Of a DNA stretch of 64,000 bases, positions 6,426-38,800 are shown piece by piece. Made by a program: the position numbers and the translations under genes. Source of the stretch: Pseudomonas sp. St316. Lineage in GTDB: Bacteria; Pseudomonadota; Gammaproteobacteria; Pseudomonadales; Pseudomonadaceae. The DNA lies in assembly GCF_018325905.1 (NCBI RefSeq), contig NZ_AP021901.1:1674001-1738000 (forward strand), written 5' to 3'. Below the pieces are notes generated by a model, which was not told the DNA's origin, did no database searches, and was given only the letters and a program-made list of their open reading frames with translations. Each line of letters starts with the position of its first letter. Position 1 is the stretch's first letter.

Positions 6426-6469
6426 AACACTAACCCAAGGCTGAAGCAGAAACTTGTGGTGAGGTCCTC

Positions 6470-6537
6470 TGTGGGAGCAAAGCTTGCTCGCGATGACATC
6501 CTTGAGACCGCCATCGCGGGCAAGCCTTGCTCCCACA
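6470..6537. repeat. REP pair (head-to-head)
   Basis: TGTGGGAGCAAAGCTTGCTCGCGAT and its inverted partner ending GCTCCCACA flank a short spacer. It is placed between the convergent rmuC and sensor kinase genes. Confidence 0.9.
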
Positions 6538-6571
6538 AGATGCCCTTGCACAGGGCCTCCATTTCTCCGAA

Positions 6572-9500: not shown

Positions 9501-10042
9501 AGGTTGCGGGTACCGAACAGGATGGTGAACAAGGCCAGGATCAGCGAGACGATCAGCGCGGTGTCCTGGGCACGGGTGCCCATGGCATCGGCGCCAGCGC
9601 CGATCAACAGGTTCACCCCGAGCACGATGCCCTTGAGTTGCAAGGCGATGTACGGCAGCACGCCGACCAGGCAGATCAGCGCGACCACCACCGCCAGGGA
9701 TTGGGACTTGCCATAGCGGGCGGCGATGAAGTCGGCGATGGAGGTGATGTTCTCCTGTTTGCTGATCATCACCATTTTCTGCAGGACCCACGGCGCCAGC
9801 ACCAGCAGCAGGATCGGCCCGAGGTAGATCGGCAGGAATGACCAGAGCTGTTCGGCGGCCTGGCCGACGGCGCCAAAGAACGTCCAACTGGTGCAATACA
9901 CCGCCAGCGACAGGCTGTAGACCCAGGCCCGCACCCGCGGCGGCAGCGGCGTGCTGCGCCGGTCGCCGTAGAAGGCGATGGCAAACATGATGGCCATATA
10001 GGCCAGGGCGACAACGGCGATCAGCCCGCTGGACAGCGACAT
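6572..10042 (-). CDS. Hybrid sensor histidine kinase with N-terminal sodium:solute symporter domain
   Basis: A 1156-residue CbrA-like architecture with an added receiver. Residues about 1-490 form a 12-13 helix SSSF/PutP-type transporter domain (the start is MSLSSGLIAVVALAYMAIMF). A PAS domain follows around 650-760 and a short coiled coil before the kinase core. The HisKA motif AVSHDLMQPLNAARLF carries the phospho-acceptor His at about 806. The HATPase has WDRGPGIAEDKL and GLGLGLAIADG. A receiver begins at about 1039 (VLCVDNEDS) with phospho-Asp about 1088 in LALVDFHLDD. I chose the ATG at 10042 because GGGAG precedes it; the frame opens 18 codons earlier. It presumably couples solute sensing or uptake to a phosphorelay. 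No response regulator gene is adjacent. It resembles PA3271 as I recall it. Confidence 0.93.
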   Translation of the reverse strand: MSLSSGLIAVVALAYMAIMFAIAFYGDRRSTPLPPRVRAWVYSLSLAVYCTSWTFFGAVGQAAEQLWSFLPIYLGPILLLVLAPWVLQKMVMISKQENITSIADFIAARYGKSQSLAVVVALICLVGVLPYIALQLKGIVLGVNLLIGAGADAMGTRAQDTALIVSLILALFTILFGTRNLDATEHHRGMVLAIAFESLVKLFAFLAVGAFVTFGLYDGFDDLFDQAMLAPRLEQYWKETINWPSMVVQTGVAMMAIICLPRQFHVTVVENIEPQDLRLAKWVFPAYLALAALFVVPIALAGQMMLPSSVLPDSFVISLPLAQAHPALAVLAFIGGASAATGMVIVASVALSTMVSNDMLLPWLLRRNNAERPFEVFRQWMLSVRRVSIVVILLLAYVSYRLLGSTTSLATIGQIAFAAVTQLAPAMLGALYWKQANRRGVFAGLAMGIFLWFYTLVLPIAAHSLGWSLTSFPGLAWLHGNPLNLPITPLTQGVVLSLAGNFTLFAWVSVLSRTRVSEHWQAGRFIGQEISARPNPRSMLAVHIEDLLQLAARFVGEERARQSFIRFAYRQGKGFNPTQNADSEWIAHTERLLAGVLGASSTRAVVKAAIEGREMQLEDVVRIADEASEVLQFNRALLQGAIENISQGISVVDQSLRLVAWNRRYLELFKYPDGLISVGRPIADIIRYNAERGLCGPGEAEVHVARRLHWMRQGRAHTSERLFPNGRVIELIGNPMPGGGFVMSFTDITAFREAAKALTEANEGLEQRVAERTRELSQLNVALTEAKSTAEAAYQSKTRFLAAVSHDLMQPLNAARLFSAALSHQHEGLPSEARQLVQHLDSSLRSAEDLITDLLDISRLENGKINPDRKPFVLNELFDILGAEFTALAQEQGLKFRMRGSRLRVDSDIKLLRRVLQNFLTNAFRYAKGPVLLGVRRHNGELCLEVWDRGPGIAEDKLQVIFEEFKRLDSHQTRAEKGLGLGLAIADGLCRVLGHTLRVRSWPGRGSVFSVSVPLAHTQAVVPSPTAEPNGHLPSGAQVLCVDNEDSILIGMNSLLTRWGCQVWTARNREECERWLVQGGRPQLALVDFHLDDGETGTELMAWLRTRMGEPVPGVVISADGRPEMIAQVHAAGLDYLAKPVKPAALRALLSRHLPL

Positions 10043-10180
10043 GGAAACTCCCGGACAAAGACACCGGGTCTTGAGCCCGGCAGGACAGTCTCGCATGCCC
10101 GCTCGGGTTCGTCAGTGTCGACCAAGGTCGAGGCGTGTTGGGGTGTCGCAGGTGGGGATTGAGGTGTTTGGGCGGTCCTC

Positions 10181-10272
10181 ATCGCGAGCAAGCTCGCTCC
10201 CACGGGATTTGCGGTGAACACTCGTTCTTTGGACGCCCTTGGAACCCATGTGGGAGCGAGCCTGCTCGCGAT
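10181..10272. repeat. REP pair (tail-to-tail)
   Basis: ATCGCGAGCAAGCTCGCTCCCAC then, after about 45 bases, TGTGGGAGCGAGCCTGCTCGCGAT. The two REPs face the opposite way to most other pairs in the window. It lies between the tetR end and the start of the sensor kinase. Confidence 0.88.
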
Positions 10273-10279
10273 GGCGTCG

Positions 10280-10819
10280 TCACTGACCCAGCGCGATATC
10301 CACCAACCGATGCAACTCCTCAACCGCCAACGGCGCGCTGGCAAAGAGGATGCGGAACACCGTCGGTGCCACCACCACATTGATCAGCCGTTCGACGCCC
10401 GGGTTGGGTTCATCGGGGTAGCGATCCAGGATGATCTGCAACTGACGGCTGATGACCCCCACGCAATACCCTGGAGTGGCGCATGCCTGGATGTCGCGCA
10501 TCATGTTGCGACCGGGCTCGGAACACATTTCATCCAGGTACTGTTCGGCCCAGGCGAGTAGGTCGCCGCGCAGGCTGCCGGTGTTGGCGGGTTCGCTGTC
10601 GGGGCGCAAACGGGCGATGGCGACGTCAGCCAGCAGCGCCGGCAGATCACCCCAGCGCCGGTAGATGGTGGACGGCGTCACCCCGGCGCGCGCAGCGATT
10701 TGCGGCACGGTCAGGGTCGCACGGTCCTGCTCTTGCAGCAGGTCGCGGACCGCCGAATGAATCGACTCTTGGACCCGGGCGCTTCGACCGCCGGGGCGTA
10801 AACCTTCTTTAATTGCCAT
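10280..10819 (-). CDS. TetR-family transcriptional repressor
   Basis: TetR/AcrR regulator of 179 residues. The N-terminal helix-turn-helix is VPQIAARAGVTPSTIYRRWG (residues about 38-58), with the family's IYRRWGD ending. The C-terminal ligand domain is the short form with a DPNPGVERLINVVVAP-like end (TetR_C type). It is divergent from the MFS transporter gene at 10923 and separated from it by about 100 bp, the usual setting for a repressor of an efflux pump. TTTGCTTT (10843-10850) and AAAGCAAA (10878-10885) in that gap could be its operator half-sites. Confidence 0.9.
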   Translation of the reverse strand: MAIKEGLRPGGRSARVQESIHSAVRDLLQEQDRATLTVPQIAARAGVTPSTIYRRWGDLPALLADVAIARLRPDSEPANTGSLRGDLLAWAEQYLDEMCSEPGRNMMRDIQACATPGYCVGVISRQLQIILDRYPDEPNPGVERLINVVVAPTVFRILFASAPLAVEELHRLVDIALGQ

Positions 10820-10842
10820 GCGTCAGACCTTAACACAAAGAA

Positions 10843-10885
10843 TTTGCTTTAAGCACACGCTGGTAGCACACTCCGCAAAAGCAAA
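10843..10885. promoter_or_regulatory. Inverted half-sites in the tetR/MFS divergent promoter region
   Basis: TTTGCTTT and AAAGCAAA are inverted repeats separated by 27 bp, centred in the 103-bp gap between the repressor and transporter genes. Assignment as an operator is inference. Confidence 0.35.
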
Positions 10886-10922
10886 AAATTAGCCTTTGCG
10901 AATATTCCTGTGGAGCGTGCCC

Positions 10923-12113
10923 ATGTCCCGTCCAGCTTCGACCCGCGCCAGCCTGATATTCCTGGCGCTCACCTTGCTCGGTTTTCTCGCCGCGTCCAGC
11001 GCGCCGACGCCGTTGTATCACCTCTACCAGGAACAATTGCAATTTTCCCCGGCGGTGCTGACGCTGATTTTCGGTGTGTACGCCTTCAGCCTGTTGGCGG
11101 CCTTGCTGACCGTGGGTTCGCTGTCGGATTACCTGGGCCGTAAACCGGTGATCTTCGTGGCGCTGTTGCTCAATATGCTGGCGATGCTGCTGTTTATCCG
11201 TGCCGACAGCGTTGCCTGGTTGATCAGTGCCCGATTGATCCAGGGATTTGCCACCGGCATGGCCACCAGCGTGCTGGGGGCTGCCTTGCTGGATTTCGAC
11301 CGTCGCCAAGGCCCATTGATCACCAGTGTCGCGCCGCTGTTGGGCATGGCATGCGGGGCGCTGGGCTGTGGCCTGCTGGCTGAGTTCGCACCGTTGCCCT
11401 TGCAACTGACGTACTGGCTTTTGTTGGGCTTGTTCCTGGCTCAGGCCGTTTACCTCTGGCGCCTGGCGGAAAGCGTCAGCTCGCAACCCGGTGCCTGGCA
11501 GTCCCTGTGGCCGACCCTGCATGTGCCGCTCCAGGCGCGGCAAGCCTTGTGGCGGGTCCTGCCACTGGACCTGGCGGCCTGGGCCGTAGGCGGTTTCTAC
11601 CTGTCACTGGCACCGTCCCTGGTGCGAGCGGCAACCGGATCGACCTCCAATCTGATCGGTGGCGCGCTGGTGGCGGTGTTGACCCTCAGCGGCGCGTTAT
11701 CCATTTACCTGTTGCGCAACCAAGGCGCAGACAAGATGTTGCGCCTGTCCGCGAGCTTGCTGGTGATTGGCCTGGCATTGGTGCTGGTGGCGGTGCATGA
11801 CGCTAGCTTGCCATTGTTCTTCATGGGCACGCTGGTCACTGGCGGCGGCTTTGGTGCGGGATTCCTGGGCGCGCTGCGCAGCATCATGCCGCTGGCGTTG
11901 CCCCACGAACGGGCCGGCTTGATGTCGGCGTTCTATGTCCTCAGTTACCTGGCCTTCAGCCTGCCGTCGCTGCTGGCGGGGAACCTGACGCGGGTGTTTG
12001 GATTGATCCCGACCACCGATGGCTATGGCGCGGTGTTGATTGTGCTGTGTGTCGTCGCGTTGTTGGGGTTACGTCAATCCATGAGGCCGGTCAGCGATGG
12101 CGCGCGGCCTTGA
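10923..12113 (+). CDS. MFS drug-type efflux transporter
   Basis: A 396-residue major facilitator with about 12 helices. It shows the loop 2-3 signature GSLSDYLGRKPVIF and the fifth-helix glycine-rich segment LGMACGALGCGLLAEF. The chosen ATG (MSRPASTRASL) follows TGGAGCG; an upstream in-frame start at 10896 would add nine residues that overlap the regulatory gap. Divergent from a TetR gene, which suggests drug or metabolite efflux induced by a ligand. The substrate is unknown. Confidence 0.9.
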   Translation: MSRPASTRASLIFLALTLLGFLAASSAPTPLYHLYQEQLQFSPAVLTLIFGVYAFSLLAALLTVGSLSDYLGRKPVIFVALLLNMLAMLLFIRADSVAWLISARLIQGFATGMATSVLGAALLDFDRRQGPLITSVAPLLGMACGALGCGLLAEFAPLPLQLTYWLLLGLFLAQAVYLWRLAESVSSQPGAWQSLWPTLHVPLQARQALWRVLPLDLAAWAVGGFYLSLAPSLVRAATGSTSNLIGGALVAVLTLSGALSIYLLRNQGADKMLRLSASLLVIGLALVLVAVHDASLPLFFMGTLVTGGGFGAGFLGALRSIMPLALPHERAGLMSAFYVLSYLAFSLPSLLAGNLTRVFGLIPTTDGYGAVLIVLCVVALLGLRQSMRPVSDGARP

Positions 12114-26890: not shown

Positions 26891-26938
26891 ATGTTCGACC
26901 GTTTTTTCCTGCTGGCCCCTGAGCGAGCCCTGTTCTGA
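26891..26938 (+). CDS. Possible 15-aa leader peptide overlapping the rhs start
   Basis: ATG at 26891 opens a 15-codon frame (MFDRFFLLAPERALF) whose TGA overlaps the rhs ATG by one base (TGATG). The rhs start has no convincing ribosome site of its own, so translational coupling to this short frame is plausible. No other evidence. Confidence 0.3.
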   Translation: MFDRFFLLAPERALF

Positions 26939-29900
26939 TGGATCAGGTGAGTCGAATCGAGCAGGAACTCGACAGCTTCAAAGGCACCCTGTCGGTCTAC
27001 CGTGAGCAGCTCGAGCGCTGGTACAGCCGAACGGCGGACCGGGCCAGTCATGCCGCTGACCTGCCGTCACTGATGGGCATGGAGCGGCTGATTCGCTTTG
27101 GCGACAGCACCACCGCTGTCAGCACCGGTGACGATGACTTCCTCTCCACGGTCGTCCAGTGCCCCAAGGGCGGGCCGATGACGATCGAAAGCAAGTTCGA
27201 ATCGGTGTACGACATCCCGCTGGGTGACATCGTGGTGGATGTGGTGGATGTGGCCAGCGGCGAGGTCACGCCGGTCACCCTGGATGCCCAGGGCCTGGGG
27301 ACCTTCACGGGGGAGGCGGGCAAGTCCTATCGCGTTCACGTCCAGGGCGAGGTGTCCGCCAAGCAAATCGCGAATCTGTTTTCTTCCTACGATGGCCTGA
27401 CCTCCGATCTGACGGACTGGTTGCGCGGTGAGTGGCAGGGCTTCAAGCCGCGATGGGCACAACAATCGCTGTCGACTTCGGCGGCGGCGGTGGGCAACGG
27501 GTTGCTCGCCGGCAGTTGGGCTGCGATTGAAAGTGTGTGGGACAGCATCAGCTTGCTCTCGGACATCCTCAAGGACCCCGGTCAGTTTGTTGAGCGGTTG
27601 GGTGACAGCGCTGATCAGTTGAAAACACTGGCGCGAGACACACCGCAGGTGATGGCGAAGCTGCAACTGCTGGCCAGCGACGAAGCTGCACTGTGCCTGC
27701 TTGTGCGCACCGCCAGCCTCTGGCTGGAGATGTTGCCGCCTAGTGAAGTCGCTGGCGAAACGGCCAAAGGGCTCTCGACCGTGGCGGTGCAACTGGTGAT
27801 CGACTTGCTGATCGGCGTGGTCTTGACCTTTGCCGGGGCAGGGGCCGGGATTGCCTACCTGGCGATGCGGTTGGCCAGGCACGGCGCAACCCTGCTGAAC
27901 GCCATGCAGCGTTTCATCCGTGCGATCTTCGCGTTGGTCAACGGCTTCATGAACTACGTGGACCGCTACAAGAGCGTGGCGGCACGCGGCATCGCGGCGG
28001 GGATCAAGAAAGGCCGGATGCAGCTGCGCTGGGATGCGCAGCGCAACACCGCGCTGAAAAAACACGAACATCACGACGACGCCCCCGCCCAGTCGAAAAA
28101 CCCCAACGGCGACAGCGTCGACACCGCGGCCCAGACCCAGACCAGCGGCTGCCCGGTGTCGATGGTCACCGGCGAAGAATTGCTGACCCTCGACGATGGC
28201 ACCCTCGATGGCCGGCTGCCGTTTGTCTTCACCCGTTTGTACCGCACCAGTGCCGCCGACCTGGACGTCGGGCTCGGGCGCGGCTGGAGCCATGCCTTGG
28301 CCCATCGCCTGGAGCTCAAAGGCGAACAGGTCATCTGGGTCGACCAGGAAAACCGCCGCACGACCTTTCCGCTGCCCAGCGCCCAACGTCCGGCGATCCA
28401 CAACAGCCTGGCACGGGCGGCGATCTACCTGGGCAGCGAACCGGACGAGCTGATCGTCGCCCAGCCCGGCGAAAACGCAGCGTTCCTGCATTTTCGTGAC
28501 GGCCACCTGAGCGGGCTCAGCGACCGCTACGACAACCGCCTGACCCTCCAGCGCAACATCCATGGCGACATCAGCCGCCTGGACAACGGCGCCGGGCGTT
28601 CCCTGCGCCTGCGTTACGCGCAGCGTCACCTGATCGCCGTCGACTACCAGAGCTTCCACCCGGCCATCACCCTCGATGAAGCCTGGCGGACCGAGCAGAC
28701 GCTGGTTTCCTACCGCTACGACGGACGTTTCCGACTGATCGAAGCGACCAATGCCGCCGGTGAAAGCGAACGCTACGACTACGACGACCAGCACGTCATT
28801 CTCCAGCGGCAACTGGCCGGCGGGGCGAGTTTCTACTGGGAGTGGCAAGGGGCCGGCCAGGCGGCTCGCTGCGTACGGCATTGGGCCTCGTTTGCGCAGA
28901 TGGACAGCCGCTACACCTGGGGCGAAGACGGCAGCGTCACGGTCCGGCACCTGGATGGCAGCCAGGAGGTGTATGTCCACGATGACCGGGCGCGGTTGGT
29001 GCGCAAGGTCGAGCCCGACGGCGGCGAGCACCTCAAGGCCTACGACGAACAGGGCCGGCTGATCGCTGAGCAGGACCCGTTGGGGGGCGTCAGCGAATAC
29101 CGCTACGACGACGTCGGACGGCTGGTGGCGCTGATTCCCCCGGACGAGGCGCCGACGTCCTACGAATACCGCAACGGTTTCCTGCACACCTGTTCACGCG
29201 GCAAGGCCGTGTGGACCTACCGGCGCAACGCCCGGGGGGACGTGATCGTCCTCATCGACCCGGATGGCCGGCGCACGGAATATGCCTACGACGCCCACGG
29301 GCAACTGCTGGCGACGTATGCCCCGGACGGTGGCGAGCATCGGTTCACCTGGAGTCGCCTGGGCCAACTGACCGAAGAGATCCTGCCCGACGGCGGTCGC
29401 CGGTGTTTTTCCTACGACGCTCTGGGGCGTTTGCTCAGTCGCCAGGACGAACACGGCGCCCTCACGCATTACCGATGGGACGCCGTCGGCCGACTGCTGC
29501 AAGTGACCCTGCCCAACGGTGCCATTCGGACCTGGAGCTACAACGCCTACGGCAAGGTCACCGCCGAGCGCGATGAACAGGGCCGCCTCACCCGTTACGA
29601 ATACGCCGACGACCTGCACTTGGTCAGCCGCCGCCTGAACCCCGACGGCAGCGAGCTGAAGTACCGCTACGACTCGGCGCGGCTGTTACTGACCGAAATC
29701 GAAAACGAATCCGGCGAAAAATATCAGCTGGACTACACGCCCAACGGCTTGATCCGACAGCAAGTCGGCTTTGACGGCCAACGCACCGCCTACGCCTACG
29801 ACCTCAACGGCCACCTGCTGGAAAAAACCGAGCACGGCGAGGACGGTTCGCAACGCGTCACCCGCTATCAACGCGACGCGGCCGGGCGGCTGCGGGTCAA

Positions 29901-31263
29901 GACCTTGCCCGACGGCCAGGCCATCGAATACCGCTACGACGCTCTGGGCCGATTGGTCCACGTCAACGACGGCAGCGATCATCCGCTGGCCTTCGAATAT
30001 GACGCCCAGGACCGTCTGGTCTGTGAACACCAGGGCTGGGGCACCCTGCGTTATCGCTACGACGCCTGCGGGCGCCTCAACTACTTGCGCCTGCCGGACG
30101 ACAGCCAGCTCGACTACCACCATGCCCCCGGTGGCGCACTGACCGCCATCGACCTCAATGGCTCACGCCTGACCGAACACCGATTTGACGGCGGGCGCGA
30201 ACGGCAACGCCAGCAAGGCCGGCTGCTCAGTGACTACGACTACGACGAACAGGGCCGCCTCAAGGCCCAGACCGTGTGGCAGAGCCAACAGCAGCAACTG
30301 TTCTGGCGCGATTATGCCTACAGCGCCAAGGGCAATCTGCAAACCCTTTCCGACAACCGAAACCGCCGCAGCTACCAGTACGACCCGCTGGATCGCCTGA
30401 CCCGCATCGACTTTTCCCACAGCGAACCGCCGGAACACTTCTGCCACGACCCGGCCGGCAACCTGATGATGCAGGACCGCCCCGGCCCGACCACCCTCAA
30501 GGGCAACCGCCTGCTGAAGGAGGGTGACCGCCACTACGACTACGACGCCTTCGGCAACCTGATCGGCGAACGCCGCGGCCAGGCCCAGGTCAGCGCCTAC
30601 CGCTACGACTGCCAACACCGCCTGATCGGCGTTACCACGGCGGACGGCCGCGAAACATCCTACCGCTACGACGCCTTCGGCCGACGCATCAGTAAGACTG
30701 TGGACGGCCTGATCACGGAGTTTTTCTGGCAGGGCGACCAGCTCGTCGCCGAAAACAGCCCGGACCACCACCGCAGCTACGTCTACGAACCCGGCACCTT
30801 CCGCCCACTGGCGATGCTCGACGGCGAAGGCCTCAAGGCCCGCCCGTTCTACTACCACCTCGACCACCTGGGCACGCCCCAGGAACTGACCAGTCCTGCC
30901 GGCGAAATCGTCTGGTCGGCGCGCTACACCGGCTACGGCCAACTCACCGCCCTCAAGCACGGCGGTGGCGAACAACTCGAGCAACCGCTGCGCTTCCAGG
31001 GCCAATACTTCGACCCGGAAAGCGGCCTGCACTACAACCGCCACCGCTACTACAATCCGGAAACCGGCCGCTACCTGACGCCCGATCCGAGCAAACTGGC
31101 GGGAGGGTTGAATGGGTACCGGTACACCCTGAACCCGACGGGGTGGGTGGATCCGTTGGGGTTGGCATGTCAGTGTCCTGGTGATATCGACGCCGATGGG
31201 CCATTCAGCGAGATTGTCCCGGGGGAGGGTTGGCTGCGCATGAGGCGCACGGTGGCCATCTGA
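26938..31263 (+). CDS. Rhs/YD-repeat polymorphic toxin protein, toxin domain lost by frameshift
   Basis: Large Rhs shell protein. Residues 1-280 are a soluble N-terminal region; 287-312 form a hydrophobic hairpin (LLIGVVLTFAGAGAGIAYL). A DUF6531-type domain starts near 404 (CPVSMVTGEELLTLDDGTLD), followed by over 30 YD repeats (for example YDEQGRLIAEQDPLGGVSEY). The core end is GLHYNRHRYYNPETGRYLTP and VDPLGLA at about 1404, where Rhs proteins are normally cleaved from the toxin tip. After 31220 the frame leaves the toxin coding sequence and stops at 31263. Restoring one G in the run at 31221-31225 joins it to the RNase A-like domain downstream. No PAAR domain is seen, and no vgrG or chaperone gene is adjacent. 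Confidence 0.9.
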   Translation: MDQVSRIEQELDSFKGTLSVYREQLERWYSRTADRASHAADLPSLMGMERLIRFGDSTTAVSTGDDDFLSTVVQCPKGGPMTIESKFESVYDIPLGDIVVDVVDVASGEVTPVTLDAQGLGTFTGEAGKSYRVHVQGEVSAKQIANLFSSYDGLTSDLTDWLRGEWQGFKPRWAQQSLSTSAAAVGNGLLAGSWAAIESVWDSISLLSDILKDPGQFVERLGDSADQLKTLARDTPQVMAKLQLLASDEAALCLLVRTASLWLEMLPPSEVAGETAKGLSTVAVQLVIDLLIGVVLTFAGAGAGIAYLAMRLARHGATLLNAMQRFIRAIFALVNGFMNYVDRYKSVAARGIAAGIKKGRMQLRWDAQRNTALKKHEHHDDAPAQSKNPNGDSVDTAAQTQTSGCPVSMVTGEELLTLDDGTLDGRLPFVFTRLYRTSAADLDVGLGRGWSHALAHRLELKGEQVIWVDQENRRTTFPLPSAQRPAIHNSLARAAIYLGSEPDELIVAQPGENAAFLHFRDGHLSGLSDRYDNRLTLQRNIHGDISRLDNGAGRSLRLRYAQRHLIAVDYQSFHPAITLDEAWRTEQTLVSYRYDGRFRLIEATNAAGESERYDYDDQHVILQRQLAGGASFYWEWQGAGQAARCVRHWASFAQMDSRYTWGEDGSVTVRHLDGSQEVYVHDDRARLVRKVEPDGGEHLKAYDEQGRLIAEQDPLGGVSEYRYDDVGRLVALIPPDEAPTSYEYRNGFLHTCSRGKAVWTYRRNARGDVIVLIDPDGRRTEYAYDAHGQLLATYAPDGGEHRFTWSRLGQLTEEILPDGGRRCFSYDALGRLLSRQDEHGALTHYRWDAVGRLLQVTLPNGAIRTWSYNAYGKVTAERDEQGRLTRYEYADDLHLVSRRLNPDGSELKYRYDSARLLLTEIENESGEKYQLDYTPNGLIRQQVGFDGQRTAYAYDLNGHLLEKTEHGEDGSQRVTRYQRDAAGRLRVKTLPDGQAIEYRYDALGRLVHVNDGSDHPLAFEYDAQDRLVCEHQGWGTLRYRYDACGRLNYLRLPDDSQLDYHHAPGGALTAIDLNGSRLTEHRFDGGRERQRQQGRLLSDYDYDEQGRLKAQTVWQSQQQQLFWRDYAYSAKGNLQTLSDNRNRRSYQYDPLDRLTRIDFSHSEPPEHFCHDPAGNLMMQDRPGPTTLKGNRLLKEGDRHYDYDAFGNLIGERRGQAQVSAYRYDCQHRLIGVTTADGRETSYRYDAFGRRISKTVDGLITEFFWQGDQLVAENSPDHHRSYVYEPGTFRPLAMLDGEGLKARPFYYHLDHLGTPQELTSPAGEIVWSARYTGYGQLTALKHGGGEQLEQPLRFQGQYFDPESGLHYNRHRYYNPETGRYLTPDPSKLAGGLNGYRYTLNPTGWVDPLGLACQCPGDIDADGPFSEIVPGEGWLRMRRTVAI

Positions 31264-31595
31264 TTGAGAAGCATATTGGTAGAACAAATGCCCAGCTAGC
31301 CCATAGACTGGAAGCAGAACCGCATATCCCAGCAGCCTCTACGTTTCCTGATAGATCTATTGCTGAGTTTTCAGCGGTGAGAGCATTAGCGGCAAATGAA
31401 AAGAAAATCGAAAAATTCTTAGCTGGGACGAAAGAAAAGACAACTATTCGTCATACATTCGACCAACCAGTGGGGGTCAGTCTGTTAAATGGTCGTAACG
31501 ATTATTTACCCGCATCAAAAGTATTGTTAGTTTTGAAGAAAGACCAGCGAAGACCAGCAGGATATTTTTTGTTAACAGGATTTCCGGAAGTATGA
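31230..31595 (+). pseudogene. Out-of-frame RNase A-like (CdiA-CT type) toxin domain of the rhs gene
   Basis: The frame after the rhs break reads AAHEAHGGHLIEKHIGRTNA, then AAEP-type spacer, ASTFPDRSIAEFSAVRALAA, and KVLLVLKKDQRRPAGYFLLT to GFPEV. This order (HL..KH.G.T, STF.D, and a terminal L.TGFP) is that of the bacterial CdiA-CT RNase A-like toxin family. In that family the last segment usually has T-x-Y, here T-G-F, which may affect activity. It lacks its own start with a ribosome site, so it would be made only by frameshifting or if the upstream G run is restored. Codon use is AT-richer than the Rhs core, as usual for exchanged toxin tips. Confidence 0.75.
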
Positions 31596-31903
31596 ATACA
31601 GAGTTTCCCGAATTACATGATTTCTTTGGGGCCTATTTTCACCAAGATTGGTCGGCCGAACATGAATCTGCTGAGCAAGTCCTCGAAGCCTTTCTGGCAG
31701 AGTCGGACGTCGAGATTCTGAAGGCTGTTCAGCAAGAGCTCAGCATCCTACTTGACCAAAAGAAAGATGAAATGGAGTTGAGAAAATATTTATTGACAGA
31801 GTTAAGTTGCTATTACAGTTATTGGAATACATGGGGGGACGGCGAGTCGTGGTTACGACATATTACTAGCAGGCTGAACTTTAAAATTGATAGTTTTTGC
31901 TGA
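31592..31903 (+). CDS. CdiI-type immunity protein for the Rhs RNase toxin
   Basis: A small acidic 103-residue protein whose ATG overlaps the toxin stop (ATGA). It reads FPELHDFFGAYFHQDWSAEH at the start, ESAEQVLEAFLAES in the middle and a WGDGESWLRHITSRL end. This is the pattern of the CdiI immunity family that pairs with RNase-type tips (FPEL..FFG.YFHQDW). It would bind and block the toxin domain encoded just upstream. The gene is intact although the toxin is out of frame, so it would still protect against siblings that deliver the toxin. Confidence 0.82.
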   Translation: MNTEFPELHDFFGAYFHQDWSAEHESAEQVLEAFLAESDVEILKAVQQELSILLDQKKDEMELRKYLLTELSCYYSYWNTWGDGESWLRHITSRLNFKIDSFC

Positions 31904-31985
31904 GCTATGGCTAATCAACACACCTCCAAAACGCTTTTCGCGGCGAAGGAGCAAACTCCCTCGCCACGGGGCCGCGCCAGGTGCT

Positions 31986-32443
31986 TCACACCGTCAAACC
32001 CAATGCCACCAAAGGCGCCCGCTCAGCCAAACCCTCCACCAGATACACACTTCCCCCCAAAATCTCCTTGGCATGGTGCTTGGCCTGCGAAGCCAGTTCC
32101 GCCAGCTGACTGGCATCCAGCTCCTCGCAGGCCTCGGAACGCAGATGCACCACGCCAATCGACAATGACAGCAGCGCAAATTCCTGGCGGATCCCCTGGC
32201 GATTCAACGCGGTAAAACATCCGGCTTCCAGATGTTCCGGGCGGTAGAAGCGGCGGCAGTGGGTCTGGAAGTCGCTGAGCAGTTGGTCCAGGCGTTTGCG
32301 CCAGTCGTCCGGGCCGAGGACGAGGAGGAAGTCGTCACCGCCGATGTGGCCGACGAAGTCGCGGCTGGGGTCGATGCGTTCGTTCAGGCATTGGGCCAGG
32401 CACAGCAAAACTTCGTCGCCGCGACCGTAGCCGTAGATGTCGT
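31986..32443 (-). pseudogene. 3' fragment of the split EAL-CBS-GGDEF gene (GGDEF domain, second part)
   Basis: On the minus strand the frame reads DIYGYGRGDEVLLCLAQCLN and then HIGGDDFLLVLGPDDWRK and LLSLSIGVVHL, ending at a TGA. This is the C-terminal two thirds of a GGDEF domain with the signature GGDDF. Its first part (YVDIDSFKPFN) is found about 5 kb away at 37461-37530 in the same orientation, so a single gene was split by the island between. It has no start of its own. Confidence 0.85.
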
Positions 32444-32462
32444 TTTACGGCCCTGTGAAAAA

Positions 32463-32501
32463 TTTGTACAAAACGCTCCCGTACAGCTTGTTGAAGGGGT
32501 T
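32463..32501. repeat. Direct repeat, left end of island
   Basis: Starts TTTGTACAAAACGCT and ends GTTGAAGGGGTT. It matches the right copy at 34 of 39 positions and lies 20 bases inside the left junction. Read on the minus strand it can encode PFNKLYGSVLYK, resembling the GGDEF F-K-x-F-N motif. Confidence 0.8.
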
Positions 32502-32756
32502 CACTGTTTACAGGCAGGATTCATTTGTCGAGGTCGAGAACCCTATCGAATTCAATGCAAGGCGTCCCTTGGTCTAGGATTTTTTCATGACTAGATAATC
32601 GTCAATTACTCTATATTGGCTTAATATAGTTTTCGTTTTAATAGCATTGCGATAGATTCTCATCGTCGGAAGCGTTGAGTTTTCTATCTAATATATGTTT
32701 ATGTATGTCGCGAGACTTTCTGAATTTCTTAAATGAATTAATTGCAAGGTGGCTAT
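32502..32756. other. AT-rich leader region of the KAP NTPase gene
   Basis: No gene is visible. TCTATATTGGCTTAATATAG at about 32611-32630 is partly symmetrical (CTATATT/AATATAG) and could hold a promoter or operator for the NTPase gene. Confidence 0.35.
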
Positions 32757-34499
32757 ATGTCTGTTCAGCAGGTCCAATCTGCATTGGAGATGTTCATATC
32801 TGAGCCTAACTCGAGAGCTGTTGTTTTAAAAGGCGAGTGGGGCACTGGGAAAACATACCTTTGGAATATGTTGCTAAAGCAGAAAAAAGAGTCAATATCT
32901 CGAAAAAAATACGCTTATGTTTCGCTTTTTGGATTAAGTAATTTAGTTGATTTAAAGCGGGCGATTTTTGAGAATGTTGTCTCTAGTGAAAATGCTGATA
33001 CTAATGGAGACTTCAAAAGCCTGATTGGGAATTTAGCAGGTGTAGGGCAAGCCTTAGAGAGAGCTGTAAGGAAAGGTGTAAAGGTTACTACTGATGCTGC
33101 TTCAATACCGTTTGTAAAAGGATTGGGAGGTGTCGTCGATGCTATCTCTTTCGCAAGTGTCTCTGATACTCTGATTTGTATTGATGATTATGAGCGAAGA
33201 AATTCAGGTCTATCTGGCAAGGAAGTTCTGGGACTTATTTCTTATCTGGTGGAGAATAAAAACTGCAGTGTTATTTTGGTATTGAATCACTCTCAATTAA
33301 GTGCTGGGTTGGACGAATATTTCCAGTTTAACGAAAAAGTATTTGATTATGAAATCGAGTTTGCTCCTACTCCAGACGAAGCTGCGAATTTGGTTTTTAA
33401 TGTGGGCGATGAGTATGAGCATAGGCTGCTGACAAACTCTATAGCCCTTAAAATTTCCAATATCAGAATTCTCAAGAAGATTCTTTATTTTTCAAAATCT
33501 CTCGCCTCGGTGATACGTAATTACCCAGAGCCGATAGTCACGCAAGTGTTACATACTCTTACATTGGCCGTTTGGTCAATTTACTCCAGTGACCCCCAGC
33601 GTGTAATGATAGGTGCAATTAAGGAGTTGGGGGGTAGTGGTTTTGAGGCCTATTTCTCAAATAAAGATGACTCGCCGGATGCTGCAATTAAAAATAAAGT
33701 TTCAATTTTTTTAAAAGAATATGGTTTTTCGAACTGTGATGAATTAGATATTGCCATCATTTCTTTGGTCGAGAAAGGTTATTTAGATGCTGGTGAGATA
33801 AGTAAGCTGGCTGAGGAGCTGGCAGCAAAAGTAGAGCATAATAAAGATATACAGATGCTTAGAGGTGCGTGGTCTGTGTATAGGTGTTCTTTTAAAGACG
33901 ATGAAGATGAGTTGATTGCGTCTTTTGAAAATGCGTTAAAAGTTTGTTTGAATAAAATGTCCTTCATGGATTTGGATTCAGTATGTGAGGCTTATAGAGG
34001 GTTGGAGCGTAACGAAAGAGCTACGCAGATTGTCGATGAGTACATGCTGGGGTTGACGCAACAAGGTACGGTAATTGATAAGCGAAGCCTGTATAGATGG
34101 CCGAAAGATAAGTATCTTTCAGATGCATTGAATGCATATATTGAAGAGTCAAAAGCTGAGAAGGGGTTCGCGGATTACATCCTGCCTTATGTTGGGACAA
34201 ATGGTCTAAATAGTGAGGACTACTTAAAGCTTTCTCAGGCTCCGGTTGAAAGTTTTTATGATTTTTTTTCGAATGCTGAAGACGAGGCATTACACTCTTG
34301 GGTCTTATATTGTTTGGAGTTCGGCTCTATTCGAGCCTCTGAAGATGCGTCGCAGGTGGCTTTTAGGAATATTTTTCTGAAGTCTTACGAGGCAATACTG
34401 AAAATACGCGGCGAGTCGTTGCTAAATAAGATGCGAACAGATACTTATATGAGCTATCAAACAATTTATGAGGCACTGAAAGAACAAAATGCTCCTTAG
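32757..34499 (+). CDS. KAP-type P-loop NTPase (island gene, candidate defence protein)
   Basis: A 580-residue AT-rich gene. The Walker A motif GEWGTGKTYLWN is at residues about 25-36 and the Walker B TLICIDDYERR at about 137-147, with SVILVLNHSQL as sensor strand. This layout, with an acidic pair followed by Glu and an R-rich turn, is that of the KAP/STAND group of NTPases, whose members include phage-exclusion proteins such as PifA. The C-terminal 350 residues are helical with no recognised effector domain. No transmembrane segments are seen, unlike many KAP proteins. ATG at 32757 follows AAGGTGG. It is convergent with the toxin-antitoxin-like operon and shares its terminator. Confidence 0.8.
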   Translation: MSVQQVQSALEMFISEPNSRAVVLKGEWGTGKTYLWNMLLKQKKESISRKKYAYVSLFGLSNLVDLKRAIFENVVSSENADTNGDFKSLIGNLAGVGQALERAVRKGVKVTTDAASIPFVKGLGGVVDAISFASVSDTLICIDDYERRNSGLSGKEVLGLISYLVENKNCSVILVLNHSQLSAGLDEYFQFNEKVFDYEIEFAPTPDEAANLVFNVGDEYEHRLLTNSIALKISNIRILKKILYFSKSLASVIRNYPEPIVTQVLHTLTLAVWSIYSSDPQRVMIGAIKELGGSGFEAYFSNKDDSPDAAIKNKVSIFLKEYGFSNCDELDIAIISLVEKGYLDAGEISKLAEELAAKVEHNKDIQMLRGAWSVYRCSFKDDEDELIASFENALKVCLNKMSFMDLDSVCEAYRGLERNERATQIVDEYMLGLTQQGTVIDKRSLYRWPKDKYLSDALNAYIEESKAEKGFADYILPYVGTNGLNSEDYLKLSQAPVESFYDFFSNAEDEALHSWVLYCLEFGSIRASEDASQVAFRNIFLKSYEAILKIRGESLLNKMRTDTYMSYQTIYEALKEQNAP

Positions 34500-34505
34500 A
34501 AAAAT

Positions 34506-34533
34506 TAGGCCCGGCAAAAAATTGTCGGGCCTA
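34506..34533. terminator. Bidirectional terminator between convergent island operons
   Basis: TAGGCCCGGCAA-AAAA-TTGTCGGGCCTA, a 12-bp stem with one G-T pair, is centred between the NTPase stop (34499) and the Beta-protein stop (34540). Confidence 0.8.
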
Positions 34534-34539
34534 TATTGA

Positions 34540-35673
34540 TCATGCTTTTTCTGTTCTGGAAACTGTCGCTGCAAGTTGGCTGGTAAATTCATAGATTTCG
34601 GTGGTGAGGGAGCTGATGTGGTGATTAGTATCGATTGATATCCATGTGGTCGGGCTGCCAACAAATTTGCCTTGGCTGCACTCCATTATACGGAGGTCTC
34701 CCCAACTGAAGTTAGCACCCATATAGTGATGCGAATCAACAATTGCTTTTGCCAAAACGTTGTTTTGAGCTGTTTTGTTATCCTGCCTTAGCGAATGTCC
34801 TCTGGCTATGAAATAGCTGTTTTCAATCGTGTAACGTATTTTTCCGTTCATATCTGGTGCGATAATGTTCTCCGCTGCCCTTGGATTGCGGACACCATAG
34901 TCGCCAAAATACAAGCTAGCATTTGGGAATGCTTGCAAAAAACCTTTCCAAGCCAGAATTTCCTTTCTGAATATAGTTCCAGAAGAATCTTTTGTTTTTA
35001 CGGCTAAATTCACCGATGCTGGAATGGAGCTGCCAATTGCTATTATGTAAGTGAATCCTAATGAACGCATATGTTCGTAAGCATGCTGTATTGTTTCTAT
35101 CGCATCGCTTACAGATTTGTTTGAAATATCCGCTAAGTCGATTATTACAGGGGTAGACGCTGGATCTAATCCGGTCTCGACGGTAATATCTTCCAGTATT
35201 TCATTAAAGTAGTCAGGGTCGAGCATGTCTTCAAGAGCAACACTATCTAAGCGAATGCTAAAGAATTGGCCTTCTACAAGATTAATCGACTTTATTGCCT
35301 CTTTGTATTCTACAATGTCCCAGCGATCATATCCTATGATCGGACAAGGGATAACGCCTCGTGCAGCGAGCTGATCGATGCTGTAGTTTAAAATATGCTC
35401 ACCTGTTTCCACTGTGAAATTCGCCGGCCATTGAAAAATGTCAATCATGACCTGTTTCTTTGGAGTGGCTTTTGACACGGCAAGAGAGCATTTTTCAACA
35501 TACTCTTTGAAAGGAGTATTTGTACGCTTCATAGCCGTTTCTAACTGCTTACCACCTAATTTCGCAAGTTCGATAATCGGCGTGGTGCGAGCAAGAACAC
35601 TGGGCGAAAGTTTGCTCAGGGCTTCTAGTTCGCCTTTTTTTGCTTTCAAAATTGGAAAGTATTGATTGTTCAT
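34540..35673 (-). CDS. Beta-family protein (PF14350-like), island operon
   Basis: A 377-residue protein beginning MNNQYFPILKAKKGELEALS with LARTTPIIELAK soon after. This start (YFPILKAKxGELxAL, then PIIEL), a central VIIDLADIS strand and a late SLYFGDYGV match the 'Beta protein' family named after a phage T4 protein and often found in defence loci. The fold looks like a TIM-barrel-type alternation of strands and helices. No biochemical function is established that I know of. It is the third gene of the operon, 11 bp after the antitoxin-protease gene. ATG at 35673 follows AAGGT; a GTG one codon earlier is possible. Confidence 0.78.
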   Translation of the reverse strand: MNNQYFPILKAKKGELEALSKLSPSVLARTTPIIELAKLGGKQLETAMKRTNTPFKEYVEKCSLAVSKATPKKQVMIDIFQWPANFTVETGEHILNYSIDQLAARGVIPCPIIGYDRWDIVEYKEAIKSINLVEGQFFSIRLDSVALEDMLDPDYFNEILEDITVETGLDPASTPVIIDLADISNKSVSDAIETIQHAYEHMRSLGFTYIIAIGSSIPASVNLAVKTKDSSGTIFRKEILAWKGFLQAFPNASLYFGDYGVRNPRAAENIIAPDMNGKIRYTIENSYFIARGHSLRQDNKTAQNNVLAKAIVDSHHYMGANFSWGDLRIMECSQGKFVGSPTTWISIDTNHHISSLTTEIYEFTSQLAATVSRTEKA

Positions 35674-35684
35674 CACAAGGTACC

Positions 35685-36896
35685 TTAAGGTTCAGATCTG
35701 AAAAGCTTTCTCACTTCGCCTTGTCCGACGAGGTCAGAAAACAGATTATAGTTGCCGCTTTCTTGCCTTAATCTTCCAGCGATTATTGCTGGGTGTATTC
35801 TCAAGTCCTGAGAGAGCTGTAGGATGGTTTCTTTACTAGGACTCAAATAAGCCTCAGATCTTTTCCATATGGCTCTTGGGATGAAAGTCTCACGGGCTAT
35901 TCTATTGGCTTCGGCTTCTCTCCTATCATCAGATGGTGCTTCTAAGTCATCGAGTATTGCTTCAGAGTTGTCCTCCACATGTTTCCATATGTGAGCAACT
36001 TCATGTATTAGTGTAAACCAGAAATTATCTATTCTATCGTATCTTAAAGTTAGGCCAATTATAGGTGTGCCATCACTATCTTGTAAGGCCGCTCCATCTA
36101 GCATTGTTCCTTTAAGGTGAGGTTCTATAATTACGGATACTCCTATTTCCTCCAGCAAATTAACCGCTAGCAGAGGGCCATTTTCATATCTGCTTAAATG
36201 TGATAGTTCTTTGATGAAGCTGTTGTCTATTGAGTCTTTTTTATAATTTGTATTTTTACGTGTTGCACGAGATTTTTGGATGATTCGGGCTATCCATGCG
36301 TAAAGCGTGTAATGGGTCGTTGGTGTTGCTGCTTCACCTTTGAGCGTTCTTCTGAATGAAGCTCCGCTTACTTGTAAACCCATTTCAGATATAAAGTTCT
36401 TAACTATGTCTTCTGCGGTGATCTTTGCTTTTTCGGTTGCTTTTAGAATCCAACCTCTTGTCACCATTTCAGTGAACGGAAATTTTTTCCAGTCGATGCT
36501 TTCTTTATTTGAGGAGCTTTCTATTTCGGACAGCCCGATTAAAGTGTCTGTTGATATTCCTAACCCTATTGCGAGTGCTCTTATCATTGGGACTGTAAGA
36601 GGTCGTTTTCGTGAAAGTATCTCAGACACGCGGCTCCTAGTGCCGAAATATGGAACTAGGTCTGCTTGTTTTAAGCCTTTTTCCTCCATCCTAAATAGGA
36701 TGGCGTCGATAGGGTCAGGACTCTCTACGGGATATTTTTGCTTTTCATAATCTTCAATAAGTATGGAGAGCAATTCAAGCTCGTCACTTTCTTTAGTGCC
36801 CGGCTTGGGCATCGAGTGAACCAGTTGTTGTACTTTTTCAAAGTACGCTTGGTACTGTTGTTCAGTGCGGATAATTTTTGCTTCTAAAATATTCAT
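35685..36896 (-). CDS. HigA-like antitoxin fused to ImmA/IrrE metallopeptidase
   Basis: A 403-residue two-part regulator. Residues 1-115 match HigA of the COG5499 type: DELELLSILIEDYEKQKYPV, PDPIDAILFRMEEKGLKQAD, then an HTH with SRVSEILSRKRPLTVPMIRA. After a linker comes an ImmA/IrrE zinc peptidase with the active-site helix TLIHEVAHIWKH (HEVAH at 298-302) and the downstream EAEANRIARETFIP segment carrying the third ligand. In phage and ICE systems ImmA-type proteases cleave repressors; here the protease is attached to the repressor itself. The ATG overlaps the stop of the HigB-like toxin gene (ATGA). It probably binds the two palindromes upstream. Confidence 0.85.
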   Translation of the reverse strand: MNILEAKIIRTEQQYQAYFEKVQQLVHSMPKPGTKESDELELLSILIEDYEKQKYPVESPDPIDAILFRMEEKGLKQADLVPYFGTRSRVSEILSRKRPLTVPMIRALAIGLGISTDTLIGLSEIESSSNKESIDWKKFPFTEMVTRGWILKATEKAKITAEDIVKNFISEMGLQVSGASFRRTLKGEAATPTTHYTLYAWIARIIQKSRATRKNTNYKKDSIDNSFIKELSHLSRYENGPLLAVNLLEEIGVSVIIEPHLKGTMLDGAALQDSDGTPIIGLTLRYDRIDNFWFTLIHEVAHIWKHVEDNSEAILDDLEAPSDDRREAEANRIARETFIPRAIWKRSEAYLSPSKETILQLSQDLRIHPAIIAGRLRQESGNYNLFSDLVGQGEVRKLFRSEP

Positions 36897-37156
36897 AGCT
36901 TTTTAATCGGAGCAGTGATGATGGCAATGCCTTGAGCGAAGGCAATCGTCAGTTCAATAAAGTAACGGGAAGAGCAAACACAGAACGAAAAGTGTCCTTC
37001 CTTTACTTTTTGAGCACTAGGATATTGTTCAATCAATTCATCGGGGCTTTTCCAGTTGGCATTAGCGATCTCGCTGACCCAGCTGGAAATCCATTTATCG
37101 ATTTGCTCGCTTTTCCCTTTCAAGGGAAGGAGCTTGTCACGCCCTAGCAGTCTCAT
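36893..37156 (-). CDS. HigB-like toxin (putative mRNA interferase), 87 aa
   Basis: First gene of the island operon. The sequence resembles the HigB/RelE-fold family PF09907: MRLLGRDKLL start, KWISSWVSEIANANWKSPDE, the EQYPSAQKV turn, then FCVCSSRYFIELTIAF where family members have FNIxGNKYRLI. The usual basic residues of that strand are largely replaced (FSFCVCSSRYFIEL) and the ending IAIITAPIKKL lacks the common GTH motif, so catalytic activity is uncertain. ATG at 37156 is chosen over the TTG at 37177 because HigB proteins start with MR and the latter lies in an operator. Toxin-before-antitoxin order is typical of higBA. Confidence 0.72.
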   Translation of the reverse strand: MRLLGRDKLLPLKGKSEQIDKWISSWVSEIANANWKSPDELIEQYPSAQKVKEGHFSFCVCSSRYFIELTIAFAQGIAIITAPIKKL

Positions 37157-37166
37157 GATCACGTAT

Positions 37167-37189
37167 TTTGTTCCCAATTTGGGAACAAA
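37167..37189. promoter_or_regulatory. Operator palindrome 1 of the higBA-like operon
   Basis: TTTGTTCCCAATTTGGGAACAAA: the core GTTCCCAATTTGGGAAC is a near-perfect palindrome extended by three matching bases on each side, 10 bp before the toxin ATG and so overlapping the ribosome-site region. Confidence 0.75.
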
Positions 37190-37220
37190 TTACTCTTGGT
37201 TCGATAGGCCGTCAAGCGTT

Positions 37221-37239
37221 TGTTCCCAAATTGGGAACA
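37221..37239. promoter_or_regulatory. Operator palindrome 2 of the higBA-like operon
   Basis: TGTTCCCAAATTGGGAACA repeats the same 17-bp core, 52 bp (about five helical turns) from palindrome 1 centre to centre. Two in-phase sites suggest cooperative binding by the HTH protein. Confidence 0.75.
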
Positions 37240-37442
37240 CGCTTCATGCCTCATAGATCATGAGATTTCAAGCGAGTGCTTGTTCTGGAGGTCAACCTTT
37301 CGGTCCCTAGCTTGCTGGCGGGCTTGGTCTATCCATCGCTTCAGATTTTTTATTTCTTCGGCACAAGATCATAGCTCTGCTGAATCAGCCCCGCGACGAG
37401 GTGAATCATCTGGTTAGCCGTGTCCGGCTCGTCACGCATTTG
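37240..37442. other. Right end of island, no clear gene
   Basis: No independent gene is seen. On the minus strand the frame that comes from the split GGDEF domain runs on from the island junction into the element as about 35 codons (ending SYDLVPKK, stop near 37360), an artificial tail on the broken gene. Confidence 0.45.
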
Positions 37443-37481
37443 TTTGTACAAAACGCTTCCGTTCATCTCGTTGAAGGGTTT
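37443..37481. repeat. Direct repeat, right end of island
   Basis: TTTGTACAAAACGCT…CTCGTTGAAGGGTTT. Its last about 20 bases are GGDEF coding sequence of the host gene (SFKPFNE on the minus strand), so the repeat spans the junction. Confidence 0.8.
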
Positions 37482-37579
37482 GAAACTGTCGATGTCCACG
37501 TAGCAAATCACCGACTCCTGCCGTTGTTGCAGCAGGCGCGTGAGGCATTGCTGGATCGGGACGTTGCCCGGCAGCAGGG
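37482..37579 (-). pseudogene. Middle fragment of the split gene: start of the GGDEF domain
   Basis: In a frame different from the EAL/CBS part this reads LTLLPGNVPIQQCLTRLLQQ then VICYVDIDSFKPFN, which is the first third of a GGDEF domain. It is cut off from the upstream part by a one-base loss at about 37580-37585 (AACCCCTGA instead of AACCCCCTGA) and from the rest of the domain by the island. Confidence 0.8.
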
Positions 37580-38800
37580 TCAGGGGTTGGCGTAGCGCGC
37601 CTGTTGGATTTTCATTTCGGTGATGAGCTTGAGCACGTCGATTACCCGGCCCAGGCCCAGGTAGCTGCCGTTGAGGGTGATGATGAAGTCTTCTTCGATA
37701 CGTTGTCGGGCGCGACTGGTGATCAGGCGGCTGACTTGTTGCAGCGACTGGTTCAATTCCACCGCCAGGAAGTCATCGCTCATCAGGCGGCTGATGGGTT
37801 TGCGGGCGAAGAGGTCGGTGGCGAAGGGCTTGAGCAAGGCGTCCGAGAGCGAATGGCGATGGACGATGCCGCAGGGCTGCCCTTGATCATCCAGCACTGC
37901 CAGGGAGTTGAGGTTGGCCTGGCGACGAAACGCTTCCAGCACGGTGGCTGTCGGTGTGTTGTGGGCCACTGCCGGTTGTTCGTTGAGCAGCGCACTCAGG
38001 TCGTTGACCTCATCGATCAACGCCGCCACGCCGCTGTCCTGCTTGGGCATCAGCGCCCGGGCATCGCGTGACGGTTGTTCTTGAGGCCGAGCCAGCAGAT
38101 AGCCCTGGACCAGGTCGACGCCCATCTCGATCAGCACCGCCAGTTCTTCCGGCAGTTCGATTCCCTCGGCAATCACCTGGGCGCGGGAGGCCCGGGCGAT
38201 TTTCAGGATCGAGCCGACGAACTCGCGCTTGAGGGCGTCCTGGTGGATACCGTCGATGAAATGCCGGTCGATCTTCACATAATCGGGCCGCAATTCAGAC
38301 CACAGCCGCAGGCTGGAATAACCGGCGCCCAAGTCGTCCAGGGCAATCGAGAAACCCATCGCACGATAATGATGCAGCGCGGTTTGCAGGAGCTGGAAGT
38401 CATCGATGGGGGTTTGTTCGGTCAGTTCGATCACGACCTGGCTGGGGGCAATGCCGAGGTCCTGCAGCAGTTGCAGTGTGCGCCCCGTCTGGTGTGCCGA
38501 TTCCAGCAGGGATTCGGGCGAGACGTTGAGAAACAGTTTGCCCGGCAGCTTTTGCTCATTGAAGCGCTGGCAGGCGCTGCGGCGACAGGCCAGTTCCAAT
38601 TCGCTGAGGCGGCCGGCCTGGCGGGCCACGGAGAGCAGCGCGATGGGGGAGTGCAACGGGCTGTTGGAGGGGCCGCGGGTCAAGGCTTCATAACCCACGA
38701 TGCGCCGTTCGGAAAGACAGATGATCGGTTGGAACAGGCTGTGCAAACCGCTTTGAGCCAGGATCGAACTCAAGGCACTCAGCTGTTCTGTCGTGGTCAT
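37580..38800 (-). CDS. EAL-CBS part of a broken c-di-GMP phosphodiesterase/cyclase
   Basis: The frame encodes an EAL phosphodiesterase domain (residues about 10-240) with all the usual motifs: YEALTRGP (EAL), LFLNVSPESL, IELTEQT, ALDDLGAGYSSL (DDLGAG for DDFGTG), YVKIDRHFI, VIAEGIE, and QGYLLARP. A pair of CBS domains follows (about 270-400). It stops at ANP because one C is missing in the C run there; the intact gene continued into a GGDEF domain. The EAL-CBS product could still be made and active, without the cyclase half. In relatives this EAL-CBS-GGDEF gene sits next to prc. Confidence 0.85.
   Translation of the reverse strand: MTTTEQLSALSSILAQSGLHSLFQPIICLSERRIVGYEALTRGPSNSPLHSPIALLSVARQAGRLSELELACRRSACQRFNEQKLPGKLFLNVSPESLLESAHQTGRTLQLLQDLGIAPSQVVIELTEQTPIDDFQLLQTALHHYRAMGFSIALDDLGAGYSSLRLWSELRPDYVKIDRHFIDGIHQDALKREFVGSILKIARASRAQVIAEGIELPEELAVLIEMGVDLVQGYLLARPQEQPSRDARALMPKQDSGVAALIDEVNDLSALLNEQPAVAHNTPTATVLEAFRRQANLNSLAVLDDQGQPCGIVHRHSLSDALLKPFATDLFARKPISRLMSDDFLAVELNQSLQQVSRLITSRARQRIEEDFIITLNGSYLGLGRVIDVLKLITEMKIQQARYANP

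Follow-up and report, generated by a model that had tools for sequence, protein, structure and literature searches.

A chromosomal PD-lambda-2 operon in Pseudomonas sp. St316 and a proposed restraining role for its HigB-like protein

Three adjacent genes in the chromosome of Pseudomonas sp. St316 almost certainly, judging by their sequences, form a PD-lambda-2 phage defense operon. The product of the first gene belongs to the HigB toxin family, but judging from its sequence it is most likely a pseudo-toxin, one that keeps the protease encoded by the second gene in check. We analyzed a window of 64,000 nucleotides (positions 1,674,001 to 1,738,000 of contig NZ_AP021901.1) from the closed 6.78-Mb genome of this strain; all positions given below are those of the window unless another locus is named. 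In the list of open reading frames (ORFs) of the window, the three genes lie on the minus strand throughout, in the order A, B, C. Gene A (36893 to 37156) encodes a HigB-like protein of 87 amino acids (aa), gene B (35685 to 36896) a HigA-ImmA fusion of 403 aa, and gene C (34540 to 35673) a Beta family protein of 377 aa counted from its ATG. A and B share 4 bases, and between B and the ATG of C there is a gap of 11 bases. The gene calls, their positions, and the 11-bp gap had been given in a preliminary description of this DNA, and the ORF coordinates agree with it.

The PADLOC model PD-Lambda-2_A (PDLC03978) matched A with an E value of 4.7e-34 over residues 1 to 82 of 87. B matched the PD-Lambda-2 B model (PDLC03982; E value, 7e-187) over residues 5 to 401 of 403, and C matched the PD-Lambda-2 C model for the P4-beta-like component (PDLC03984; E value, 3e-154). 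PD-Lambda-2 calls for adjacent genes on one strand in the order A-B-C, which is how the genes in the window are arranged. The system was found by experimental selection and is reported to act by abortive infection; its genes are described as HigB-like, HigA-peptidase fusion, and P4-beta-like, in that order (Vassallo et al. 2022, PMC9519451). All three components, with their order, spacing, and domains, are common to the published system and to the trio in the window. We found no difference in composition, but the Pseudomonas copy is on an island with a gene for a KAP-family NTPase. At three E. coli trio loci that we read, B is 57 to 60% identical to its counterpart in the window, and C is 41% identical. 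The preliminary description had linked the locus to phage defense, and here the PADLOC models bear it out. It had also held that no described defense system has this composition, and it had named an existing entry in a defense catalog as what would overturn that view. Such an entry exists: the trio matches PD-lambda-2, which PADLOC-DB lists with a model for each of the three components, and the idea that the composition is undescribed therefore fails. The composition has already been described, and there is no new system here.

The trio was in identical order at all 19 loci that we read, so it is not a chance arrangement. These loci are the window, L013 to L020, L075 to L079, two from a search for Beta (L098 and L109), and three from E. 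coli (L142 to L144). The nearest named records at the locus are from Pseudomonas umsongensis (B 100% identical) and P. gregormendelii (B 96% identical). Matches to B with an E value of 1e-30 or better were found in 10 of 298 genomes of the genus, and they were near full length in 6, including the strain's own genome. At 1e-20, 58 of 369 genomes of the class had a match, and among the matches listed most were to the HigA domain alone. When we counted only loci from the B searches where B spans both domains, relatives at least 44% identical had A upstream and Beta downstream in 14 of 14 cases (the window, L013 to L020, and L075 to L079). Relatives that were 34 to 42% identical (L028 to L032, read in wider stretches as L070 to L074) had a HigB-like gene upstream in five of five cases and Beta in none of the five. 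The DNA search that gave the E. coli loci matched 8 of 5,426 genomes, of which we read three. One of them (L142, positions 5608 to 11262 of that locus, from E. coli strain C) has, beside its PD-lambda-2-type trio, a SIR2-family gene in convergent orientation and an adjoining integrase gene.

Protein A had been described as a HigB-like toxin. The family assignment stands, since A exceeds the cutoff for Pfam PF09907, HigB_toxin (32.3 bits; cutoff, 27), although only profile positions 5 to 62 of 74 are matched; three other HigB matches in the same genome cover positions 2 to 74, 19 to 73, and 4 to 72. The toxin role is not supported, because residues conserved among HigBs are absent from A. The C-terminal segment of an ordinary HigB resembles GNxYRLxV...GTHxEYD. 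We aligned 24 ordinary HigBs (20 encoded beside a stand-alone HigA and 4 beside a HigA-ImmA fusion without Beta) with the A proteins of the trio loci, and counted 17 of the latter, including that of the window. The A protein of L075 (genome G618) was left out because it has kept the motif, and that of L013 was left out because it hardly differs from the one in the window; that of L014, identical as a protein to the one in the window, was kept in. The core residues L11, W28, W37, and F60 are present in 17 of 17 trio A proteins and in 21 to 23 of the 24 ordinary HigBs. At K44, N61, and N65, the ordinary HigBs have the conserved residue in 22 to 24 of 24 cases, and the trio A proteins have it in 3, 0, and 1 of 17, respectively. 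The disparity is complete among the trio proteins at R68, H88, and Y91, with 0 of 17 at each position versus 23, 24, and 24 of 24. A simple count of the motif HxxY in the last 30 residues gave 1 of 19 trio loci, the single case with an intact HigB motif being L075, and 0 of 12 database homologs of A. The same count gave four of four HigB-HigA-ImmA loci without Beta, and a fifth such locus, L029, also has HxxY. The A proteins of the three E. coli trio loci likewise are without the motif, but these loci may not be the locus of the published experiment.

The gene is nevertheless not decaying: by sequence comparison, A is kept as a protein. Relative to L014, it has six synonymous and no nonsynonymous differences; relative to L013, no synonymous and one nonsynonymous difference; and relative to L020, about 42 synonymous and about 33 nonsynonymous differences. 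In this last comparison, A changes faster than B (dN, 0.18 versus 0.11), which counts against the reading of A favored here. Because the core is kept, the polar sites are lost, and the sequence is guarded, A looks like a pseudo-enzyme with a binding role. We consider it probable, on these patterns, that A is not an RNase, and a little less so that it inhibits B. Among characterized relatives, E. coli K-12 HigB, a member of PF09907, is reported to cleave translated mRNA (PMC11980606, PMC2814082). For Streptococcus pneumoniae HigB, which has 4% identity to E. coli HigB, Arg73, Arg68, and Phe90 are reported to have mattered most (PMC7984235). We found no paper proving that the R, H, and Y residues lost from A are catalytic in PF09907. 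Vassallo et al. liken A to HigB toxins (PMC9519451), a likeness that we question as regards function. In their assay of E. coli PD-lambda-2, as reported, B is toxic by itself and A rescues the cells, which runs against the toxin role previously given to A; C is required for defense against lambda-vir and dispensable for the neutralization of B (PMC9519451). If A is a pseudo-HigB, this would explain why B is toxic and A protective.

Protein B is, as had been noted, a fusion of HigA and ImmA/IrrE domains (PF01381 HTH_3 and PF06114 Peptidase_M78). The HigA antitoxin/repressor part extends over residues ∼1 to 121, and the ImmA/IrrE (M78) zinc protease part over residues ∼221 to 392. B has the HExxH motif and the downstream acidic residues by which ImmA/IrrE (M78) proteases are recognized, the motif being HEVAH at residues 298 to 302. 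The protease site had been called complete, and the alignment supports this: residues H298, E299, H302, H306, E327, and E329 are invariant in 36 sequences (chosen by hand, including that of the window, and extending down to 29% identity). It is plausible that after a phage trigger the protease acts on a partner or on B itself. We rate the chance that proteolysis is the killing activity of B as about even; B could instead be toxic because its HigA domain binds DNA.

Two operator-like palindromes precede the operon. The proximal one (37170 to 37186) lies just upstream of A, and the distal one (37222 to 37238) is 52 bp further upstream; in shuffled sequences, the number expected by chance was 0. 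The proximal palindrome is retained in L013 to L016 and L020. The distal one is retained in L013, L014, and L020 and is degenerate in L015 to L017.

Protein C matches the Beta_protein family (PF14350; E value, 1e-62) and is predicted to fold as a TIM barrel (model pLDDT, 95.5). Residues in Beta are numbered here from residue 2 of the protein, so that 1 must be added for the full protein. Y4, P31, D77, and D257 are present in 53 of 53 aligned sequences and in 17 of 17 further Betas, which include that of P4 and two from E. coli; D178 is present in 53 of 53 and in 15 of the further 17, and R140 in 53 of 53 and 13 of 17. According to the strand list of the model, D77, D178, and D257 lie within barrel strands or at their ends. 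They are placed in the model like pocket residues, and C is likely to be an enzyme or a ligand sensor. Our tentative preference, held with somewhat less than even confidence, is that C is a sensor or adaptor rather than the effector.

On the plus strand, convergent with the trio, is a gene for a KAP-family NTPase (32742 to 34499, with the ATG probably at 32757). The preliminary description had called it a KAP-type NTPase, correctly by the Pfam KAP family match (33.5 bits; cutoff, 20), and it also matches a PADLOC candidate, PDC-S49. The gene and the trio are carried on an island of ∼5.0 kb (32445 to 37458), delimited by flanks that are contiguous in relatives and by a direct repeat. The island splits a gene that, by eye, has EAL, CBS, and GGDEF parts. 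Its two flanks (31985 to 32444 and 37459 to 38800) are contiguous, with an overlap of 8 to 14 bases, in L112, L113, L114, and L116, and a 15-base direct repeat lies near the island ends, at 32463 and 37443. The split gene was matched in 95 of 99 genomes of the genus, with an open frame of fewer than 580 residues in 12 of the 95, including this genome (424 residues). In L013 and L020, there is an insert at the same chromosomal place. No integrase was seen in the ORF list of the 5-kb island. A long ORF of 1,441 aa lies at 26938 to 31903, ∼1 kb away from the KAP gene; it has numerous YD-type repeats and looks, by eye, like an Rhs protein. Of the two small ORFs that follow it, one is possibly an immunity gene.

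The KAP NTPase had been proposed as a fourth partner, and a system in which it is obligatory is very improbable. It does share a chromosomal site with the trio in the window, in P. umsongensis (L013), and in Pseudomonas sp. GOM6 (L020, with a KAP protein that is 64% identical). However, these are the only 3 of 19 trio loci at which it adjoins the trio; it is missing at the other 16, including L014, where B is 96% identical (L098 and L109, also among the 16, have short flanks). The KAP model matched 10 of 298 genomes of the family, 2 of which are those of the window and L013. In the four of the other eight KAP genomes that we read (L080 to L083; 5.4 to 14 kb), A, HigA, ImmA, and Beta were all absent around the KAP gene. 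At other trio loci, different genes lie downstream of Beta: when six of these were run through Pfam, four had defense-type domains, one was an integrase, and one had no match. Convergent with Beta are a macro-domain protein (L015) and a SIR2 protein (L142); in the same orientation are a NACHT protein (L014) and an AAA/OLD-TOPRIM ATPase (L079). In addition, full defense by the trio alone has been reported for E. coli PD-lambda-2. The KAP gene is a passenger on the island and is outside the PD-lambda-2 system.

The explanation that we favor, with a little better than even confidence, is that the trio is an abortive-infection operon in which A restrains B, C couples infection to B, and the protease of B kills. 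The roles would be reversed relative to HigBA: A would be a pseudo-HigB that has kept the HigA-binding core and lost the RNase residues, and it would hold the HigA-ImmA protein inactive in a complex. The A-B complex would also repress the operon at the twin palindromes. After infection, C, through its Beta TIM barrel, would sense a signal made by the phage or mark a substrate; the zinc protease of B would be released and would cut a substrate protein, and the infected cell would die ahead of phage release. A classical HigBA module with a built-in fuse is an unlikely alternative reading of the same genes. It would make A a translation-blocking RNase and B its antitoxin, with ImmA cutting or inactivating its own HigA domain after a phage trigger and so freeing A. 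The domain names fit this, and RosmerTA systems are reported to pair ImmA-type antitoxins with toxins (PMC10440598). Against it are the loss of the conserved HigB residues from A at 18 of 19 trio loci and the published toxicity of B with rescue by A (PMC9519451). Because HigB is intact at the HigB-HigA-ImmA loci without Beta, the classical logic may hold for those loci. They (L070 to L074) are a possible ancestral two-gene form.

In the other alternative, the effector is Beta, as a TIM-barrel enzyme that ImmA would activate by cleavage or release after infection, with A and the HigA domain controlling only expression and protease activity. That C is required for defense (PMC9519451) accords with this, as do the high-confidence barrel with its near-constant Y4, D77, D178, and D257 and the position of an ImmA gene before Beta at 17 of 21 loci. 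But B is toxic alone in the published assay, and in satellite phage P4, beta is reported to be presumed the antitoxin to gop (PMC9122126), which gives no hint of killing by Beta in P4. On balance, we regard an effector role for Beta as rather improbable.

The PD-lambda-2 trio resembles other known systems in part. It shares with type II HigBA (PF09907 plus HigA) the family of A, the HigA domain of B, the toxin-first order, and the palindromes before the operon. It differs in that A lacks the conserved HigB residues and in that B, which includes a protease, is the component found to be toxic in the published assay. PADLOC models for other ImmA/IrrE proteases, CapP and RosmerTA RmrA, match B only with E values of 5e-4 or worse, and the partner genes differ. 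TAC, or HigBAC, which has a SecB-like chaperone as its third component, was ruled out: the third gene here is a PF14350 Beta with a TIM-barrel model. The gop-beta-cII locus of P4 shares the Beta family (P4 Beta matches PF14350 with an E value of 4e-56), and P4 Beta is the middle of a three-gene locus. There, however, gop, which has no ImmA match, lies upstream, and a convergent sce7726-family gene (cII) follows. The window has the HigB-like and HigA-ImmA genes upstream of Beta and no sce7726 match, and so the trio was ruled out as gop-beta-cII. P4 gop-beta-cII is a known defense locus, as reported (Rousset et al. 2022, PMC9122126).

To see Beta in its neighborhoods, we took the PF14350 matches in 8 of 369 genomes of the class and 13 of 398 genomes of the phylum, three matched genomes being common to both. 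These gave 22 distinct Beta genes, with two fragments of a single gene treated as one; L107 and L109, both pieces at contig ends in the same genome, may represent a single gene. Directly upstream of Beta, in 17 of 21 cases (L107 being outside the count), is an ImmA-type gene with HExxH. Six of the 17 have HigB plus HigA-ImmA, four have a longer ImmA without a HigA match, and seven have a short ImmA of 165 to 189 residues; thus, 11 of 17 ImmA-Beta pairs are without HigB or a HigA domain. A convergent sce7726-family gene is present at 12 of 21 Beta loci (L109 being outside the count). All four Beta genes without an upstream ImmA (L084, L100, L106, and L108) are among these 12; they have the layout of P4 gop-beta-cII, without a protease. 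Of five HigB-type loci of this set that were checked for sce7726, only that of G618 has it. That locus (L075), where a trio whose HigB motif is intact is joined by a convergent sce7726 gene, is a possible intermediate between a gop-beta-cII-like arrangement and PD-lambda-2.

The loci with a short ImmA followed by Beta are L090, L091, L092, L099, L101, L104, and L105, with a convergent sce7726 gene in L090, L099, L104, and L105. In L101, L104, and L105, Beta fits the PADLOC P4 beta model better than the PD-Lambda-2_C models, and the best PADLOC match of the ImmA protein is CapP. The gene upstream in L090, L101, L104, and L105 appears, by eye, to encode a membrane and coiled-coil protein, recalling P4 Gop. 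Possibly, the short-ImmA-Beta loci are an unnamed protease version of gop-beta-cII. L096 (genome G343) has two tandem Beta genes, both preceded by a short ImmA gene of their own, and in addition a third ImmA-like ORF.

Taken together, PD-lambda-2 may be a protease-effector system with reversed roles, in which a dead HigB is the antitoxin of a HigA-ImmA protease, and one branch of a larger defense family; we hold this combined reading at just under an even chance. The core of the family would be an ImmA zinc protease followed by a TIM-barrel Beta. The upstream control or effector genes would be exchangeable (HigB plus HigA, other HTH domains, or short membrane-type proteins), and so would the downstream gene, which is often a convergent sce7726 gene and in PD-lambda-2 is various and sometimes of a defense type. 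P4 gop-beta-cII would be the branch without a protease.

The locus itself is a further member of PD-lambda-2; what is new here, and worth testing, is the reading of A as a pseudo-HigB and the ImmA-Beta core. A false new system is removed, and a published surprise, that an antitoxin-like protein is toxic, gets a testable explanation: a member of a toxin family would have turned antitoxin through the loss of conserved polar residues. If this is true, it shows that the parts of toxin-antitoxin systems swap roles in immune systems, and the ImmA-Beta pair would be indicated as a functional unit shared by several defense-type loci.
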